A stretch of 64,000 nucleotides of DNA from Yamadazyma tenuis (Eukaryota; Ascomycota; Pichiomycetes; Serinales; Debaryomycetaceae), in NCBI RefSeq assembly GCF_029203305.1, contig NC_089464.1, forward strand, positions 1,178,001 through 1,242,000. The letters are read 5' to 3'. Both the position numbers and the translations under genes were made by a program. The first letter of the stretch is position 1. Each line of letters starts with the position of its first letter. This document shows positions 26,101-43,406 of this stretch, in pieces. The notes under the pieces were generated by a model. The model was not told where the DNA came from. It saw nothing but the letters and a program-made list of their open reading frames with translations, and searched no databases.

Positions 26101-26235
26101 GTATCCAATCCTCCAGCAGTTGGCTTTGGTTGTCCTTGAGGTTTGGGTTGAGGTAAACCTTGAGGTGGAATTTGGCCCGAAAGGCTTGGAATTCCACCAT
26201 CTTCGGAACCTCTCTGTTGGATATGTTGGCCTTGT

Positions 26236-26276
<41 letters not shown>

Positions 26277-26334
26277 TTGCTGTTGCTGTTGTTGCTGTTG
26301 CTGTTGTTGCTGTTGCTGTTGTTGCTGTTGCTGT

Positions 26335-26369
<35 letters not shown>

Positions 26370-26418
26370 TTGTTGTTGTTGAAGCTGAAGTTGAAGTAGC
26401 TGTTGCTGCTGCTGTTGC

Positions 26419-26458
<40 letters not shown>

Positions 26459-29400
26459 GCTGTTGCTGTTGTAACAACTGATGTTGAGACATTTGAGAAG
26501 GTTGAAATTGAGCAGGGGGGAGGTGAGCTTGTCCATCAAGGGCCAACTTGGAAAAGTCATTGACCAAAGGATTAGCATTCTGCTGGATACCAAACATTGC
26601 AGCCAAAGCAGCAGGATTTGGTGGATGGCTTCTTACAATTGTTGAAGGCTCAACATCGGAAATCTTCATGTTAAATGAGTTTAATAAGACTTCAATCTCA
26701 AACTTCAGATTCAATTTCAAGTCAGCACAATCATAAAGTTCGACCAAAACTTTAATGATACCAAGTACCCAGGGATTGGGTAAGTTGAAAATCTTCGAGT
26801 ATTTGGCTTGATCTAAGATTTTGCAAACAAAAGGAATAACGTAAGGCAAGGTTTTGAAATCATAGGCTTCCACTAACAAAAACTTCACTCCAATGTGAGT
26901 TCTCTTCAATGCTTTGTCTGAAGCCAAAGTAATCTGACCTAACCACGATCCCAAGTTTTTCAAATGAGAACGTTCAAGAGATGTATCCTTGAAGTTTCTA
27001 ATCAAAAAGCTGACTTCCCTCAAAGAAACGCTCAAAACGTATTCATAGAATATAGGATCATCGAATTCCTGAACAAGCTCACAGTATAATCTATGATTAT
27101 TAGGTTCAGACTTGGCTCTATCGGCAACCAAATAGTCGGCAAACCACAAGAAGAAGTTCTCAATCAAATAGTCTTTGATTTCAGGCAATTTGCTATTCAA
27201 GTTGTCGCCAGTCAAGTTGTTAACAAAGAAAAGTAATCTGTCAGTAACATTTTCATTGGGTTTTTCCTGTTGGATGCTTCCAATGATCTGGTCGGAGATA
27301 GTTATCGATTGATATTTTATTCCACCGTCCTCAGTTGATTTGTTTATCAGCATTGGTTGTCCACTGGAGTTCGATGAATCAGGTCTACTACCATTGAAGG
27401 ATTGATCATCACAAGGAATACCGTTTGACGCATCCTTGACTATCTGGTACATCTTGGCATGTGCGGACAATGAGTTACACTCCAATAGATGCTTACAGTA
27501 GTTTGGGTACTCGTGTAATCTTGACTTGAAGTTGTATAACGCCTGGACTGCAAACTTGAACAAGTGAGAATCTTGTGGTTGATTACAAGACTCCCAAATA
27601 AAATTCAATGCAACAGTTAAAGTAGTTCCTTGAATGATATCTTTTTGTAATAATGCACCAAACAACAAAGATGTGGAAGCCAAGGCAGTCAAAGGATATT
27701 CTGAGAAGAATCTGTATTCATCCAATAATGAGTGGATCATACAAGCGAAGATATCTTGATCGTGTGGGATATCACTTGACTTGAACTTAATCAACATATC
27801 AACTATTTCTTTGATATCCAATTCTTTGTTGTACATCTTCGAATAATAGGCTTTCATCTCTTGCTCAACTGGTTCAGGGAATACATTGGATACCTTGTCA
27901 TTTTCAAGAATAGCACCATCGTGACCACAGCCAAAGTTGATTAATCTTGGATAAGTGGTTAACAACTGTAACTGTAATGCCTTCAATTTCTCACCATTAA
28001 GGAATCCAGCATGTCTGGTAAGAATCCCTAATAAGTGAAATACAGTAGCTACACCTAATACCTTGGTTTTGGTAATGAGGTTAGTGTCTTCTGTAGACTT
28101 GACCTCCAATATCTCTAAGATGGCTTGAACGACAATAGGTCTCTTATTTGGATCATTCAACAATGAATCAATCAATGGTTTACAATCAAAGTCCAAAACC
28201 GAGGAACAAATTGCCAAGTTCAACCCCATGGTGATATTGATATTCAAGAACTGGGTTAATAAACTATCAAACAAGTTCAGTTGTAACATGGCGCGGCTGA
28301 TAGTCAAGATTGCATCAGTATTCTTGCGGAGGTTGTAATAGTTGAAAAGCTTATTCATAAGAGCGCCTTGTTCTCTTTCATTGAATTTCTGAATTACATT
28401 TCTCAAAAACTTACTCTCATTTGTGAGCAACGTGTCCAACAAGTTGTTCAAAACCCCTTCGATGAATGGGTTACCCTCGTTCACGAAAGTGATACATGCG
28501 CAAAGCATGTATTCTGGGAAAGTATGGCAGTGATGATCGAACAATTTGGAGATTTCGGAGTCAATTGACTTTTCATTCAAGGGCTTTTTAGATGCCGCGT
28601 ATTGGCTAACAACTTTCAACTCTAAGCGGCCGACATTGATATATGCTATAGGAGTTCTTCTACCCAATTGAGATTCAATTGGAGTCTCAACATCGTCAAA
28701 ACCTCTCGTCAAGAAAGGAGATGTGCCAAGGTCATAACAACCTTGCTTAGGGTCAGCCGTGAGAAGTGTATACAACAAGACGTTGCTGAAGCTCCAATCA
28801 ACACTCAATGCAATGTCTAACAAGCCAGGACGGAAATCAATGGCAGCTATGAATTGATTTATGTTTAAGAATGATGGAGCTACAGCCTTCGATGCAGATA
28901 AGGTCTCTTGAGCCTTGGAAAACACTAATAACCAGTCGATTTTAATGGCGGGGTCAGAATCAAGAAGCTTAAATGTGGTTTGCAATTGGGCACCTTTGGC
29001 AGATGATTCAGGGAATGATTTGCACGTAGACAAACCTTTCAAAGGATTAGATGGCAAGTTCGTAGATCCTGGTGAAATAACCTCTGCAATTACCAAAGCC
29101 AATGACAGATCGATTTCCTTTTTATCTATTTTTAACATGACAGGCAACAAATTTCCAGGATTAATACCCTTCAAATCCTTATTTACCTCGATCAATAATT
29201 CTTTGAAAGACATATTAGGTAAACTTTTAGTGGTAAGTTCAAGAATGTTTAATTTTAAAGTAGGATCAATGGTTCTTTCTAATGTGATGGCGGCCAATAA
29301 TTTAGCAGCTGGAGGAAAGTTTTTGTTACTGATGGTAGCAGCGAAAAAGGGGGCAAATTCAAAGCTTTCAGTGAAAAAGCTAGCTCTTTGTGTGATATTG

Positions 29401-29855
29401 GTAGCAAGTACAAGAAGTTTTGCTTTGTCTGCTTCAGTGTACGAGGTGCAGAACTCTCCGAAGAAGTATAATCCAAGTACTGGTCCGACTCTAACTCTTT
29501 CAACAAAATCTAAAACCGAGATTGAGTTGAATAACTTTTCGAAATATGGATGATATAAACCAATGTCACGGAAAGCGTTCAAATGAAATAATAGACTGTC
29601 TTCAAGTATTTGTTCTAATGGACTAAGTTCAGTGGTGTTTTCAGTATAACTTATGGAAACTAAACTTAATAATTTACCGAAATAATGAGGGAGAACTGAT
29701 CTGGAACTATTAGATAAAATGTAATTGATTTCTTCAAGTCGAACACGATAATTATCTTCTGTAGTGGTAGATAGTAAAATGAATAACTGATTGATGATGC
29801 TTTTCTCTACTTCTAATAAGATGCCCGGTGGGCTTTTTTGGTAATTGAGACTCAC
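23121..29855 (-). CDS. NOT1: Not1 scaffold of the CCR4-NOT complex, without an AUG at its start
   Basis: Large scaffold (about 2244 aa) that binds Pop2/Caf1, Not2/Not5 and other factors for mRNA deadenylation and transcriptional control. N-terminal helical HEAT-like region, a Gln-rich insert with an 80-codon polyQ tract (about residues 1129-1208), the CAF1-binding/CN9BD-like region, DUF3819-like segment, and the C-terminal Not1 domain (NPFKRGLKVERI, AFQPKDAHVSIFFDLL, HFFNAKTWSN). The coordinate 29855 is a GTG codon beginning (GTG)SLNYQKSPPG; the frame has no ATG until residue 214 (29213), although the intervening sequence is clearly coding, and the upstream leader has no ATG in any frame. So initiation is at a non-AUG codon, at an undetected upstream exon, or the GTG is a substitution or error for ATG. 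Confidence 0.9.
26232..26471 (-). repeat. polyglutamine tract in NOT1
   Basis: Eighty CAA/CAG codons interrupted by a short LLQLQLQ patch. The CAA/CAG alternation suggests expansion by unequal exchange of mixed codon blocks; length is likely polymorphic between strains. Confidence 0.9.
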
Positions 29856-30164
29856 GGTTAAGAAAGGTACTCCAAGGGGGACGTCAAGGGTTCCTTTCTG
29901 AATTGAAAAAAGATGGTCCGAACGAGGAGATTGATTTGTATAACGTGTTGAATCCCTGGAGGAGATCTATGCAATATAATTGGTGATGCTGAAAAATAAC
30001 TTGTATAACAGCGGACGAATGACAATTGATTTGGCGCTTTTCCTGTTGCTTGAAAATTTTGAGAACTGGAAGAACTGTGCGACTGGCACGGTTTTGTGCA
30101 ACTTTGGGTTTACCCGGATAAATTGTCAATTGGTATAATATAAACTGTCTCTATTATGTACCTA
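29856..30164 (-). promoter_or_regulatory. NOT1 5' region, AUG-free in all frames
   Basis: 309 bp between the TBC gene stop and the NOT1 frame. No ATG occurs on the minus strand in any frame here. In frame with NOT1, the stretch just upstream of GTG stays open for about 20 codons. TATA-like TTATATTATA lies near 30136-30145. Confidence 0.6.
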
Positions 30165-31691
30165 TTAAGCAATCACTTGAATAATCTCCTTGATTAATTC
30201 CTCATCATCAAGGTTTGCCATGCATTTGATCAACAAATCTTTCATGGTCTTATTTTGTCTTGATATTTCGCTATTGGCGAAAGGTGATGGGATCTTCAAG
30301 TAATCTGCAAATTTTGAGTTTCCCGAACTACTCGAGTCTATGGTGACCTCGGAGTACACAGAGTCTGTGTCATTGTTGACAGTTGTGTAGATTTTCTTGG
30401 AGAAAATCGAGTTGTTGGAGGTGTTGCCCAAAGAGTAGCTTGAGATGTTCAAACTTCTGAACTTATCAATCATGGAAGACTGGGTTCTCTTATGTGTTTT
30501 CATGGGCTTGTTAATATGCAACATATCTTCATTCTTGTTGAAAAACAGGGGGTCAAAGTTCATTAATAGTTCACCAAAGAAATGGTTGATATCTTTCAAT
30601 GCCAACCCCCATTTGCACTCGTATAAAAGGTGCTGATAAACCACCTCTTCCTCTCCATCTGTCAACGACATCAAAATGGGTTTGTTAACCAATAATAACC
30701 CAGCAGAAATCTTGAACATTCCTATTTTCCAGCCTTGGATTAAGCAAAAGTCTAAGATCCGATTGATGATGGAAAAATCTGGGGTGTGACTCGACATGAA
30801 CGAAAGCCACCATTGGTATAAGAATACCTTCATATCCACAAATGATGACATATGCACGTAAAGCTCATTGTCTAATTTGGATAACATCCCAGTGAACTCA
30901 CTGTACCATTTGTTCAAGGTGGAGGACATCAATTCTTGGGTGAAGATGTCATGCAATTCCACCTCGGACTCCATGATGGTAATCAACGAGTGGAAAGTGA
31001 GCTGGGGATCCTTGAACTGATAGAATAACGTACCCACCAAGAACAATAATCCCTGGCAGTAGCCTAATTCCACGTCGTAGTTCGCATAGACGTTCAAGAC
31101 GGTTTCAAGCTGCTTGATGTTTCTCTCATCAAGGAAAAACGAAACAGTTGGAAAGGTTCTGTTTAAGTCCTTGCTGATCTGATCTGACGTCTCCGAGTTG
31201 TACGAGTGTTGAAAGTTCTTGTACACCAACAAACACGCCTCGGGTATCTCGTTGTTGTAGTGAATCAAAAACAATTTCTTCCAGACGGTTGGCCGGAGCT
31301 GAAATGGGATTCCCTGTTCCAAGAACAATAACTGGGAATAGTGAGGAAGAGTGTTGATGGTTCTTGTGGGACTATTCAAAAACAATCTCCAGTAACTCGA
31401 CTCTAACGATGATGAGAGCTTGGACTGTTCAATAAACTTCAAACAGCAATCGCTGTTGGTGTTTATTGGTTTACCACAGATGTTGCACGAAGTAAACTCA
31501 TCCATAGAATAGTCGTAACCGTTGAAAATGGCTTCTAACGCGATTTCTGGGGAGGTGGTAGAATGGTCGGACGGAACCACCAAGTTGTACTCGATCTTGG
31601 CTTCCAAGTTGCCCAAAGTAATCGAAGTATCTTTCTGGGTGCTTGTTTGTAAACTATCTTCAAACTCCAAAAGGGACTCGTAATCGGACAT
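30165..31691 (-). CDS. TBC-domain Rab GTPase-activating protein
   Basis: Accelerates GTP hydrolysis by a Rab GTPase in vesicle traffic. The start is MSDYESLLEF at 31691; an upstream ATG (31766) adds a hydrophobic non-family leader. 508 aa. TBC domain about 125-380: GIPFQLRPTVWKKL, arginine finger motif ISKDLNRTFP (R178), glutamine finger YCQG (211-214), and FLYQWWLSFMS and DFCLIQGWKIGMFKI further on. An N-terminal CNIC...DCC cysteine cluster (69-83) may bind zinc. The Ser-rich C-tail is variable. Both catalytic fingers are intact. Specific yeast orthologue not assigned. Confidence 0.88.
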   Translation of the reverse strand: MSDYESLLEFEDSLQTSTQKDTSITLGNLEAKIEYNLVVPSDHSTTSPEIALEAIFNGYDYSMDEFTSCNICGKPINTNSDCCLKFIEQSKLSSSLESSYWRLFLNSPTRTINTLPHYSQLLFLEQGIPFQLRPTVWKKLFLIHYNNEIPEACLLVYKNFQHSYNSETSDQISKDLNRTFPTVSFFLDERNIKQLETVLNVYANYDVELGYCQGLLFLVGTLFYQFKDPQLTFHSLITIMESEVELHDIFTQELMSSTLNKWYSEFTGMLSKLDNELYVHMSSFVDMKVFLYQWWLSFMSSHTPDFSIINRILDFCLIQGWKIGMFKISAGLLLVNKPILMSLTDGEEEVVYQHLLYECKWGLALKDINHFFGELLMNFDPLFFNKNEDMLHINKPMKTHKRTQSSMIDKFRSLNISSYSLGNTSNNSIFSKKIYTTVNNDTDSVYSEVTIDSSSSGNSKFADYLKIPSPFANSEISRQNKTMKDLLIKCMANLDDEELIKEIIQVIA

Positions 31692-40700: not shown

Positions 40701-41450
40701 TTTTCTGTTCAACAATAGGTTGTCTCTCTAATTCGTATCTTAATTAGGGGTTCCAGTCATCGGGTCTTGCCACTTTGAGTCAATCAACAATGCCTGTTGT
40801 CCAATTGCCTAAATAGATCCAATCAACTGAGTACCTTTTGCACTCCGTGTGGCTAATACGTATACGCTTTGAGGTATGTTATCAAGCTCTTGCAGTACTT
40901 AAATATTACCCTCCGCGATTAAAAATCAACAGTTCTAGTAAAGATTAGGCAGGGCGGTTATATCATTTGGAAATGTAAACTCTTTTTTGATTTAGAGTAA
41001 ATTTTGAGAATACAAGGTTACTACATTGAGGATCGTAGAGTACTAAGGTATGAAAATTGTGGAACCTCTAATGTCATCCTGTCTCCTGTTCAGCTCAGAT
41101 TTCAAAAGCGGCCATTCGTTTTTGGCTAGGCCTTGAAAAGAAGAAATAACCTGCCCCTTGCCGTAAACTTCGACTCTCCTGGCTGAAGATCTTTTACCTC
41201 TTGAGATGTAGATATACTTTATCTCATTGTTAAAGCCATTTCCTATATTAAACCTTCCAACAAGCTTATACTCCAGAGTAAAAGTACTAACCTTTTGGGA
41301 ATGTGCACTATTTAAATACTAAACTCGTGTTCTCTATATCAATGCCCAAATGGAGATACTTTGGAAATTACTCAGCCAAGTAATTCCCCTTGTCGATAAG
41401 TGGGTATATAGTAAATAATGTACCCTATGCATGGTACTAAATTTCTTCAA

Positions 41451-43406
41451 ATGAAACTTGCAAGCTTATTAAGCAGCTTAGCTATCTTGCCCTCCGTATT
41501 TTCCGCTAGTATTGATGTCGGAGGATGTTCTCCTGATACAACTGACCTAGAGCAGGGTTTAAAAGCTGAGTTCTTTAGTGTTACTACAGAGGAGGTCGAT
41601 AATGATAACCGAAATAAAGCTAATTTTGAGTCCTTCCTTCAAAAGATGGACAAATATAAGGTAGTTTGTACTGGTAATACAGGTGATGATATTAATTTCT
41701 ACTATCCACTGGAAACTATTGGTGAAACTGCTACTATTTATGGCTGTTCGGAGAACACAGAAAAAATTGGAGTAAGGCTTACAGGTTACTTATATGCTAC
41801 GCAGTCAGGAACTTACAACATTCTGGTTACCTTTAACAACGCTGGAGCATTAACAATTGGAAATGGGAACGGTTTGGACTGCTGTAGTAATAGTAGCATT
41901 CCATATGAGGCAGGAGATAGTGCATACTTGTTTTCCACTACTTCGCAGTCGCCTGCGGAAAGAAGTCAACAATACGAATTGAAGGCTGGAGTGTATTATC
42001 CTATTAAGATCCTTTATTATAATGGTTACACGGGGCCAGCTACTTTCACACTTGGTATTACCTTACCCGATGGAACACAACTCACTGAGTCTGAATTTCC
42101 TTTGTATACCTTTAACACAACCAATGAATCTGATTATTGCCCGATTACCACAACCACTACTCTCATATGGACAGGAACTGATACTGAGACTTTTACAGTG
42201 ACAGCTTCTGACGGCGACGTGACTGTTACTGTTGAAGTACCAGAATCCACAACCACTACAACTGAACCATGGACTGGTACAGGTACTACTACTGTCACAA
42301 TCTATCCTTCGAATCCAAGTGATCCTGTAACTATTGAAGTTAAAACTCCAGAATCCACAACCACTACAACTGAACCATGGACTGGTACAGGTACGTTCGA
42401 GACAACAATCTATCCTTCGAATCCAAGTGACCCAGTTACAGTTCTCAAGAAGACTCCAGAAACTACAACCACTACAACTGAACCATGGACTGGTACAGGT
42501 ACTACTACTGTCACAATCTATCCTTCGAATCCAAGTGATCCTGTAACTATTGAAGTTAAAACTCCAGAATCCACAACCACTACAACTGAACCATGGACTG
42601 GTACAGGTACTACTACTGTCACAATCTATCCTTCGAATCCAAGTGATCCTGTAACTATTGAAGTTAAAACTCCAGAGTCCACAACCACTACAACCCATCT
42701 TGGATCCATTGCCACGACTTTTACTATTACTCCCTCAAACCCAAGTGACCCAGTGACTGTTGTTGTTGAAACAACCCCTACTCCCTCAAGCTCTTCTTCA
42801 TCACGTGTCAAACCATTAAGCCTGTCTTTCCACTGGTTGAATTCAACTACTCCAATATCATCTTCGGGTACTTCGTCTTCAGAAGGGACTTCTTCTAGTC
42901 CAGCACCATCTAGTCCAGCACCATCTAGTCCAGCACCATCTAGTCCAGCACCATCTAGTCCAGCATCATCTAGTCCAGCATCATCTAGTCCAGCACCATC
43001 TAGTCCAGCACCATCTAGTCCAGCATCATCTAGTCCAGCACCATCTAGTCCAGCATCATCTAGTCCAGCACCATCTAGTCCAGCACCATCTAGTCCAGCA
43101 CCATCTAGTCCAGCACCATCTAGTCCAGCACCATCTAGTCCAGCACCATCTAGTCCAGCACCATCTAGTCGTACACCTTCGGAAAGTATTATCACTATTA
43201 CCACCCCTTGGACCGGCTCTGTTACATCAACTTATACCACAACTGGAACTGATGGTAAGCCAACTGTTGTTGTCGATACTCCTGTTCCTACCATCACTAC
43301 TCCATGGACTGCTGTACAAGAAGTCTCCACTTACGAGGCTATGGGTTCAAAGAACACCTACACATTCTTGGCTGTGTTATCTGCACTTTTGTGGATTTCA
43401 TTTTGA
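41451..43406 (+). CDS. adhesin 1: GPI-anchored PA14/GLEYA-type surface protein
   Basis: Probable cell-wall adhesin of 651 aa. The start [10 protein letters not shown] at 41451 gives a clean signal peptide; the in-frame ATG at 41418 would bury it behind 11 residues. N-domain (about 25-235) begins [18 protein letters not shown], then [22 protein letters not shown] and [12 protein letters not shown], the Flo/GLEYA lectin fold with its Cys-Cys motif. Four 36-aa Thr-rich flocculin-type repeats ([10 protein letters not shown]...) follow, then 18 SSPA[P/S] units, one and a part TITTPWT repeats, and a GPI signal (YEAMGSKN plus hydrophobic tail). It lacks the cysteine-bearing C-terminal module found in adhesins 2 and 3. 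Ligand unknown. Confidence 0.88.
42246..42680 (+). repeat. 108-nt flocculin-type repeats in adhesin 1
   Basis: Four copies of a 36-codon unit. Copies 1, 3 and 4 read [20 protein letters not shown]; copy 2 carries FETTIY and VTVLKK, the version found in adhesin 2. Confidence 0.9.
42894..43163 (+). repeat. 15-nt SSPAP tandem repeat in adhesin 1
   Basis: Eighteen units of TCTAGTCCAGCACCA or the single-base variant TCTAGTCCAGCATCA ([10 protein letters not shown]), forming a likely O-mannosylated stalk. Confidence 0.92.

Follow-up and report, generated by a model that had tools for sequence, protein, structure and literature searches.

NOT1 encodes the scaffold of CCR4-NOT, the machine that shortens mRNA tails, and the isoforms of its S. 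cerevisiae product (NOT1/CDC39) are reportedly the subject of a study by Pillet et al. in eLife in 2022. In yeast ALA1 and GRS1, a near-cognate codon gives the longer of two in-frame products and a downstream AUG gives the shorter, the extension being a mitochondrial targeting signal. For S. cerevisiae NOT1, two translational isoforms produced by leaky scanning have been shown experimentally, with AUG1 as the minor and AUG163 as the major start; the authors report one mRNA, and less of the short form in the presence of out-of-frame ATGs (PMC8970588). ALA1 and GRS1 are described as starting at the non-AUG codons ACG and TTG, respectively (PMC2909995), and cpc-1 of the Pezizomycotina as carrying a conserved N-terminal extension translated from near-cognate codons (PMC5487733).

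We examined a 64,000-nucleotide stretch of DNA (the window) from Yamadazyma tenuis, a member of the order Serinales, which carries a NOT1/CNOT1 orthologue identified by its Not1 C-terminal (E 1.3e-125), CAF1-binding (1.4e-86), HEAT (1.4e-55), and TTP-binding (6.7e-49) domains. The upstream neighbor is OCA5-like, judged by the name of a fused Candida verbasci record. The features of the locus are listed in Table 1.

Table 1. Features of the Y. tenuis NOT1 locus, in window positions
Feature	Position	Strand	Remarks
GTG, proposed non-AUG start of long NOT1 isoform	29853..29855	-	context ttaaccGTGag, A at -3
NOT1 N-terminal domain	29214..29855	-	214 codons; no Met, no ATG in any frame
First AUG (codon 215), proposed short-isoform start	29211..29213	-	context acctaatATGt, A at -3
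Short-isoform frame, 2030 aa	23121..29213	-	HEAT, TTP-binding, CAF1-binding (MIF4G), DUF3819, and Not1 C-terminal domains
Leader/intergenic stretch without ATG	29856..30164	-	309 nt
In-frame stop TAG	29967..29969	-	37 codons 5' of the GTG
RabGAP-TBC protein, upstream neighbor of NOT1	30165..31691	-	same strand as NOT1

This locus resembles S. cerevisiae NOT1/CDC39 (PMC8970588) in having two in-frame starts, putative in Y. tenuis, that are separated by sequence lacking ATG in every frame, a homologous N-terminal domain, and a Met at the domain border as the start, again putative in Y. tenuis, of the short form. The long form of S. cerevisiae begins at an AUG (tac-ATG; PMC8970588), in a context that we read as poor, whereas in Y. 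tenuis the corresponding place is occupied by a GTG with A at -3. With ALA1 and GRS1 it shares the use of a near-cognate codon as a candidate start (PMC2909995), but the extension differs, being in Y. tenuis part of a scaffold protein and predicted to fold as a domain. The alanyl-tRNA synthetase gene of Y. tenuis has an ATG close upstream, in whatever frame. An evolutionarily conserved fungal N-terminal extension with a near-cognate start, putative in Y. tenuis, is likewise common to cpc-1 and Y. tenuis NOT1; however, the cpc-1 leader has uORFs, and footprints suggest a starvation response, whereas the Y. tenuis NOT1 leader is AUG-free (PMC5487733).

The original prediction held that the minus strand lacks ATG from about 30200 to 29213. 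We confirmed this and placed the flanking ATGs exactly, at 30205 and 29213, with 991 nt between them free of ATG in all frames. Since the TBC gene ends at 30165, this gap holds 309 nt of intergenic and 642 nt of coding sequence. When we surveyed 264 kb of the Y. tenuis genome on both strands (the window and twenty 10-kb stretches, C1 being the only contig sampled), the NOT1 gap was the longest of 9131 ATG-to-ATG gaps, at 992 nt between first bases, compared with a mean of 57 and a next longest of 659. ATG alone among the trinucleotides is missing from the region; given the composition of the window, 17 would be expected there, and given the dinucleotides of the region itself, 9.4. The reverse complement, CAT, occurs 22 times vs. 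18 expected and thus shows no depletion. The first NOT1 codons had been described as coding and AUG-free, which stands, but the count of 213 requires correction, since 214 codons lie ahead of the first ATG, at codon 215. Only a single dipeptide of the encoded peptide (N93-A94) could yield an out-of-frame ATG by synonymous choice, giving 0.44 expected such ATGs and a probability of 0.56 of finding none. Given the peptide, the absence of out-of-frame ATGs in the coding part is therefore expected, and the avoidance sits in the amino-acid sequence: the Y. tenuis N-terminus has one permissive dipeptide vs. a shuffle mean of 7.5 (P ~0.0015).

The earlier suggestion to compare N-termini from related species proved informative, as a Met-free, ATG-avoiding tract was found across the clade. 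We counted Met and the permissive dipeptides [NHDY][VADEG] in the aligned N-terminal core, dropping sequences with <120 core residues (12 Serinales, 3 Pichiales/Phaffomycetales, 19 basal, 4 Saccharomycetaceae, and 24 Pezizomycotina/other) as well as P0140, P0153, P0177, P0187, and P0197; groups follow ranges of record numbers and general taxonomy, and single members may be misfiled. Met made up 2 of 12742 core residues in the Serinales (n=63; 233 expected), 0 of 4003 in the Pichiales/Phaffomycetales (n=18; 66 expected), and 28 of 4083 in the Saccharomycetaceae (n=28; 110 expected). The Saccharomycetaceae Met, one per sequence, is no more than 6 residues from the internal-start place in 27 cases; in P0145 it precedes that place by nine residues. 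Observed/expected ratios of permissive dipeptides in these three groups were 0.40, 0.40, and 0.34. Seven other early-branching budding yeasts had 5 Met vs. 31.6 expected, carried by three of the seven, and a dipeptide ratio of 0.39. In contrast, the control group of Pezizomycotina/other (n=29) had 131 Met vs. 150 expected and a ratio of 0.87. Avoidance of both Met and out-of-frame ATG is thus common to the budding-yeast groups and absent in filamentous fungi. The same dipeptides in reverse order gave 0.94, and the permissive ones in the remainder of the protein gave 1.04, in a count of 78 sequences that required a domain of 150-350 residues and excluded 4 models that were fused or too long, along with 7 sequences that had the domain but no M in the column. 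A tree-aware count of Met changes in the Serinales gave 2 for the core vs. 71, 136, and 40 for the next three stretches.

The tract ends at a conserved in-frame ATG, the second putative start, at the domain border, as a Met lies within 6 residues of the codon-215 place in all 63 Serinales that have the domain. This figure is unpicked, whereas the "nearly invariant M215" of our 68-row alignment is not independent evidence, the rows having been hand-picked and being mostly known carriers of the internal Met. The NCBI model P0002, whose contig measures 1,222,892 rather than 1,254,210 and hence belongs to another assembly that possibly used the same reads, starts at the internal Met, as do nine others of the 16 NCBI-named Serinales proteins listed.

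Several comparisons indicate that the N-terminal domain is genuine protein-coding sequence lying 5' of any in-frame AUG. Identity of the Y. tenuis domain was 40% with P0003, 36% with P0004, and 33% with P0009 over ~200 aligned residues, and NOT1 was 45-48% identical to these three over 447 residues. A profile comparison with Saccharomycetaceae Not1 N-termini (probability 98%, E < 1e-12) showed homology to residues 1-162 of S. cerevisiae Not1, the best local match pairing query residues 13-94 with S. cerevisiae 20-100; the homology covers the Caf130-binding segment 21-153, the later part of which aligns in global mode only. A structure model of residues 1-447 was helical with a mean pLDDT of 90.8, and M215 falls between predicted helices 198-211 and 217-227. 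The domain is accordingly predicted to be folded and all helical, and it probably matches in fold the end of animal CNOT1 that binds CNOT10 and CNOT11.

A GTG at 29855 followed by SLNYQKSPPG was, as predicted, present in the sequence, and its proposed role as the start fits all the tests made. No other GTG, CTG, TTG, or ACG is in frame from the upstream in-frame stop down to codon 92, and the GTG has a purine at -3 and aligns with the predicted start of the close relatives P0003, P0004, and P0009. Against this reading, GUG initiates weakly in yeast. If the mRNA is unspliced, the TAG bounds how far upstream the start could lie. The predicted starts of unspliced relatives cluster, with SPxG within the first 20 residues in 48 of 60, and the residue at the start place, where readable, is V or L. 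The start codons of relatives are deduced from protein records, not nucleotides; a viral_contigs scan with P0006 for DNA of relatives returned one pattern match and no relative, and the set contained no species in which a short NCBI model could be paired with a long, unspliced prediction (best, 88.6%, P0017 with P0030). Some records do show an apparent AUG for the long form, within the Serinales in Metschnikowia bicuspidata and Candida viswanathii and outside the order in Ogataea, Pachysolen, Wickerhamomyces, and the Saccharomycetaceae, so the non-AUG start is not universal. It nevertheless probably holds for most Serinales, as far as protein sequences indicate. Candida Not1 has been stated to lack ~180 N-terminal residues, and Caf130 to occur in the Saccharomycetes, a group containing Candida species (PMC3868889). 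If most Serinales use a non-AUG start, this lack is probably an annotation artefact.

We considered whether the gene might instead begin at an ordinary AUG obscured by a base error or a strain-specific ATG-to-GTG change at 29855, which had been named as the main alternative. One substitution would give an ATG where the predicted proteins of relatives begin with M, and those M may be true ATGs. However, ten named Serinales proteins, P0002 from its separate assembly among them, start at the internal Met, V or L is what can be read at the start place, and a strong AUG would leave the ATG-free coding tract unexplained. An error at a single base fails to account for a clade-wide tract that is Met-free and avoids ATG, and we regard it as very improbable. 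A strong AUG on a 5' exon in or beyond the TBC gene, spliced to NOT1, would likewise leave the downstream AUG avoidance unexplained. Annotators' fused models of this kind exist (P0007, P0069, and P0071, from C. verbasci, C. metapsilosis, and C. jiufengensis), and the TBC gene contains GTGAGT at 30901 and GTACGT at 31033, with TTAAC at 29861 and an AG ending at 29851. Nonetheless, GTGAGT and GTACGT are weaker 5'-site-like words, the TBC frame at either is out of frame when joined to this AG, and TACTAAC, GTATGT, and GTAAGT are absent between 31700 and 29700, although that consensus may not be this genome's. The upstream partner also varies, one fused model having TBC and two having PF05670, suggesting no conserved exon, and the clustering of unspliced starts at one place argues in the same direction, making a spliced exon improbable.

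The short isoform could also come from a separate transcript begun inside the N-terminal-domain sequence, with no leaky scanning involved. While compatible with the Y. tenuis sequence, such a promoter would give no cause for the purge of ATG from the leader and three frames, and the single mRNA and the effect of out-of-frame ATGs reported in S. cerevisiae speak against it (PMC8970588); we consider this equally improbable as splicing. Finally, the frame is open up to 29966, and the long form might start at another near-cognate codon within these 37 upstream codons (ATC at -37, AGG at -34, or ATT at -16). All three have T at -3, P0003 and P0009 resemble the Y. tenuis frame from residue 2 after the GTG onward, and the relatives' predicted starts fall at the same place. 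We judge this unlikely, if the least so of the four.

We therefore consider it highly probable that Y. tenuis NOT1 has two translation starts on a single mRNA, GTG 29855 and AUG215. Part of the scanning ribosomes would initiate at the near-cognate GTG to make full-length Not1, and the others would scan ~640 nt devoid of AUG in every frame and begin translation at AUG215, making Not1 without its N-terminal domain. The earlier proposal of two isoforms by scanning of one mRNA is consistent with all tests, and both proteins are expected from the sequence. As the domain is the counterpart of the Caf130-recruiting segment of S. cerevisiae, we infer that it may bind Caf130 in Y. tenuis as well, and that the GTG would set the share of CCR4-NOT complexes bearing the N-terminal-domain module. 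The two-isoform mechanism is already known from S. cerevisiae NOT1, and the proposed non-AUG start of the long form is the new part. In the main text of PMC8970588, neither non-AUG nor near-cognate nor Candida albicans occurs, and no title on a non-AUG NOT1 was found among the literature matches listed, in a search that covered few subscription papers.

More tentatively, and with some doubt, we suggest that in most Serinales the long isoform comes only from GUG or UUG, that initiation stringency dials a Caf130/NAC-type module, and that the loss of the Candida N-terminus is an artefact of annotation. If true, eIF1 and eIF5 levels and growth state would set the fraction of CCR4-NOT carrying a co-translational surveillance module. 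The N-terminus of a protein whose gene is essential in S. cerevisiae would be corrected across much of an order with medically important yeasts, and the published inference that Candida Not1 lacks the N-terminal domain would fall (PMC3868889). The tract also provides a natural example of selection against AUG, in all three frames, that can be seen in the amino-acid sequences of budding yeasts. It further suggests that a weak first start can be reached in two ways, through a leaky AUG or through a codon other than AUG.

NOT1, which encodes the CCR4-NOT scaffold, lies on contig C4 of a genome of 8 contigs and 10.86 Mb. A homologue search returned the NCBI model of the same species (P0002; Yamadazyma tenuis ATCC 10573, order Serinales) with 100% identity over the aligned part. 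In the minus-strand frame, numbered from the proposed GTG start, Not1 domains span residues 217 to 2236. The ATG-free stretch noticed earlier was confirmed: the minus strand carries no ATG in any frame between the two bounding ATGs. At 992 nt between first bases, this gap is the longest of 9131 ATG-to-ATG gaps on both strands of the 264 kb surveyed (the window plus 20 stretches of 10 kb from contig C1; next longest, 659), and ATG is the sole trinucleotide missing from it, CAT not being depleted. An antisense ORF over the N-terminal region is probably due to chance. P0002 omits a poly-glutamine stretch that the window encodes in frame, probably because it was modeled as an intron.

Features at and around NOT1 (window positions)
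Feature	Position	Strand	Remark
TBC-domain gene	3' end at 30165	minus	NOT1 is next, same strand
NOT1 ATG-free gap	30205 to 29213	minus	bounded by ATGs
In-frame TAG	29969-29967	minus	frame open for 37 codons from here to the GTG
Proposed long-form start, GTG	29855	minus	A at -3
Internal Met (M215), first AUG of the frame	29213	minus	proposed short-form start
Poly-glutamine stretch	26211-26477	minus	89 residues
Antisense ORF	28945-29553	plus	202 aa
Second-longest ATG-free gap	42593-43252	plus	within ORF 41418-43406

Apart from this proposed start, no GTG, CTG, TTG, or ACG lies in frame between the upstream TAG and codon 92. Similarity to the closest relatives starts one residue after the GTG (VSLNYQKSPPG vs. 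MSLNYQDSPKG and MSLNYKDSPQG).

We aligned the first 1000 residues of NOT1 proteins, defined the core as Y. tenuis residues 15 to 214, and took the expected Met count from the rest of each protein. The core held 2 Met in 12742 residues in 63 Serinales sequences (233 expected), both (P0056 and P0073) no more than three residues from the internal start, and none in 4003 residues in 18 Pichiales/Phaffomycetales sequences (66 expected). The 28 Saccharomycetaceae sequences had one each (28 vs. 110 expected), 27 of them within six residues of the internal-start place and one, in P0145, nine residues ahead of that place. Another seven early-branching budding yeasts had 5 (31.6 expected). Dipeptides able to spell an out-of-frame ATG across a codon border, [NHDY][VADEG], occurred at 0.40, 0.40, 0.34, and 0.39 of expectation in these four groups, respectively. 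Since 29 Pezizomycotina and other fungi were near expectation for both Met (131 vs. 150) and dipeptides (0.87), the avoidance belongs to budding yeasts. Controls on 78 sequences gave 1.04 for the permissive dipeptides in the remainder of the protein, 0.94 for the reverse order within the domain, 1.13 for [NHDY] followed by P/L/Q/R/H, and 1.07 for [NHDY] followed by K/S/T/I/N; the other out-of-frame route, a residue whose codons can end in A followed by Cys or Trp, stood at 0.59. When changes were counted by parsimony along a tree of these 63 Serinales sequences, the core needed 2 Met changes vs. 71, 136, and 40 in the three comparably long stretches that follow it (5 for the whole N-terminal domain with fused models included), and it is the most divergent of these stretches (mean pairwise identity 0.30 vs. 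0.52, 0.41, and 0.77). A Met within six residues of the M215 place was present in 63/63 Serinales, 18/18 Pichiales/Phaffomycetales, and 27/28 Saccharomycetaceae sequences, and in 6/29 Pezizomycotina and others. Clade-wide avoidance and a conserved internal Met support the proposal of a start before the first AUG, at the GTG, with two isoforms.

The relatives' N-termini, compared as had been suggested, showed the same design, their start codons being inferred from protein records rather than nucleotides. Among the best 120 of 1226 matches, 10 of 16 NCBI-named proteins from Serinales have the internal Met itself as their first residue (P0002, P0015, P0017, P0023, P0034, P0036, P0042, P0047, P0060, and P0061), as would be expected of ATG-demanding ORF callers if no in-frame ATG lay upstream. 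One starts further in (P0065), two carry a Met close to where the start is expected (P0040 and P0067), and three continue into the gene upstream (P0007, P0069, and P0071). The Candida verbasci model is fused to a TBC gene and those of C. metapsilosis and C. jiufengensis to a PF05670 gene, the fusions probably being by-products of the missing ATG. Most unnamed "lgn" and "ena" records carry M at or close to the aligned start; because GTG and TTG starts are often rendered as M in predictions of this kind, this is no proof of ATG. All four domain-bearing "jgi" records among those 120 matches (P0072, P0083, P0090, and P0097) begin with V or L. Wherever the Serinales start-place residue is readable, it is V (P0001, the window's own NOT1, GTG by DNA; P0072; and, by eye against neighbors, P0014, P0022, P0029, and P0040) or L (P0007). 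The motif SPxG falls within the first 20 residues of 48 of 60 long unfused Serinales sequences and is absent there from 12; a few predicted starts are shifted, e.g., P0013 upstream and P0041 and P0062 downstream. P0040 (Metschnikowia bicuspidata) opens M-V-T-S-Q, its residue 2 aligning with residue 1 of P0024 and P0033, so a new ATG may have formed in the codon immediately before an ancestral GTG. In the Saccharomycetaceae group, P0136, P0144 (Tetrapisispora phaffii), and P0151 start at or near the internal Met, having either lost the N-terminal domain or had its start missed.

Four rival readings, headed ALTERNATIVES, were weighed: a base error, an upstream exon, a separate promoter, and another near-cognate start. 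A base error at the GTG, previously held to be the main alternative, is made highly improbable by the clade pattern together with the NCBI model, which derives from a different assembly. That an AUG-bearing upstream exon is spliced to NOT1 is improbable, as strong splice signals are absent between 31700 and 29700, the weaker words present would join out of frame, and the upstream partner is not conserved. Production of the short form from a separate promoter, which would leave AUG avoidance in all frames unexplained, seems equally doubtful. Initiation at another near-cognate codon upstream of the GTG is unlikely, all three candidates having T at -3.

The two-isoform mechanism is already known, from one species. 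According to PMC8970588, S. cerevisiae makes two Not1 forms by leaky scanning, from a minor AUG1 and a major AUG163 with no out-of-frame ATG between them; a silent out-of-frame ATG reduces the short form, with a stronger effect at codon 40 than at codon 156, and the short form is lost altogether with M163L/A. The same paper assigns binding of Caf130, and through Caf130 the recruitment of Cal4 and Btt1, to segment 21-153, and states that lowering of RPL3 and RPL4 mRNA needs residues 1-162. Among the matches listed, the literature searched yielded neither a non-AUG variant of NOT1 nor an account of how widely one occurs.

The sequence architecture of Y. tenuis NOT1, and selection on that architecture, are established. 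The gene has the features of the S. cerevisiae system apart from the first AUG, its first start being GTG rather than AUG1, and the best reading by analogy is thus the same leaky-scanning mechanism with a non-AUG first start. The GTG would initiate the long form, two Not1 proteins would be made, and Y. tenuis Not1 may bind Caf130. A 2013 review (PMC3868889) describes Candida-group Not1 as lacking about 180 N-terminal residues relative to S. cerevisiae and Caf130 as specific to Saccharomycetes, Candida species included. Our comparison suggests that these Candida residues are encoded but were overlooked because gene models required an ATG.
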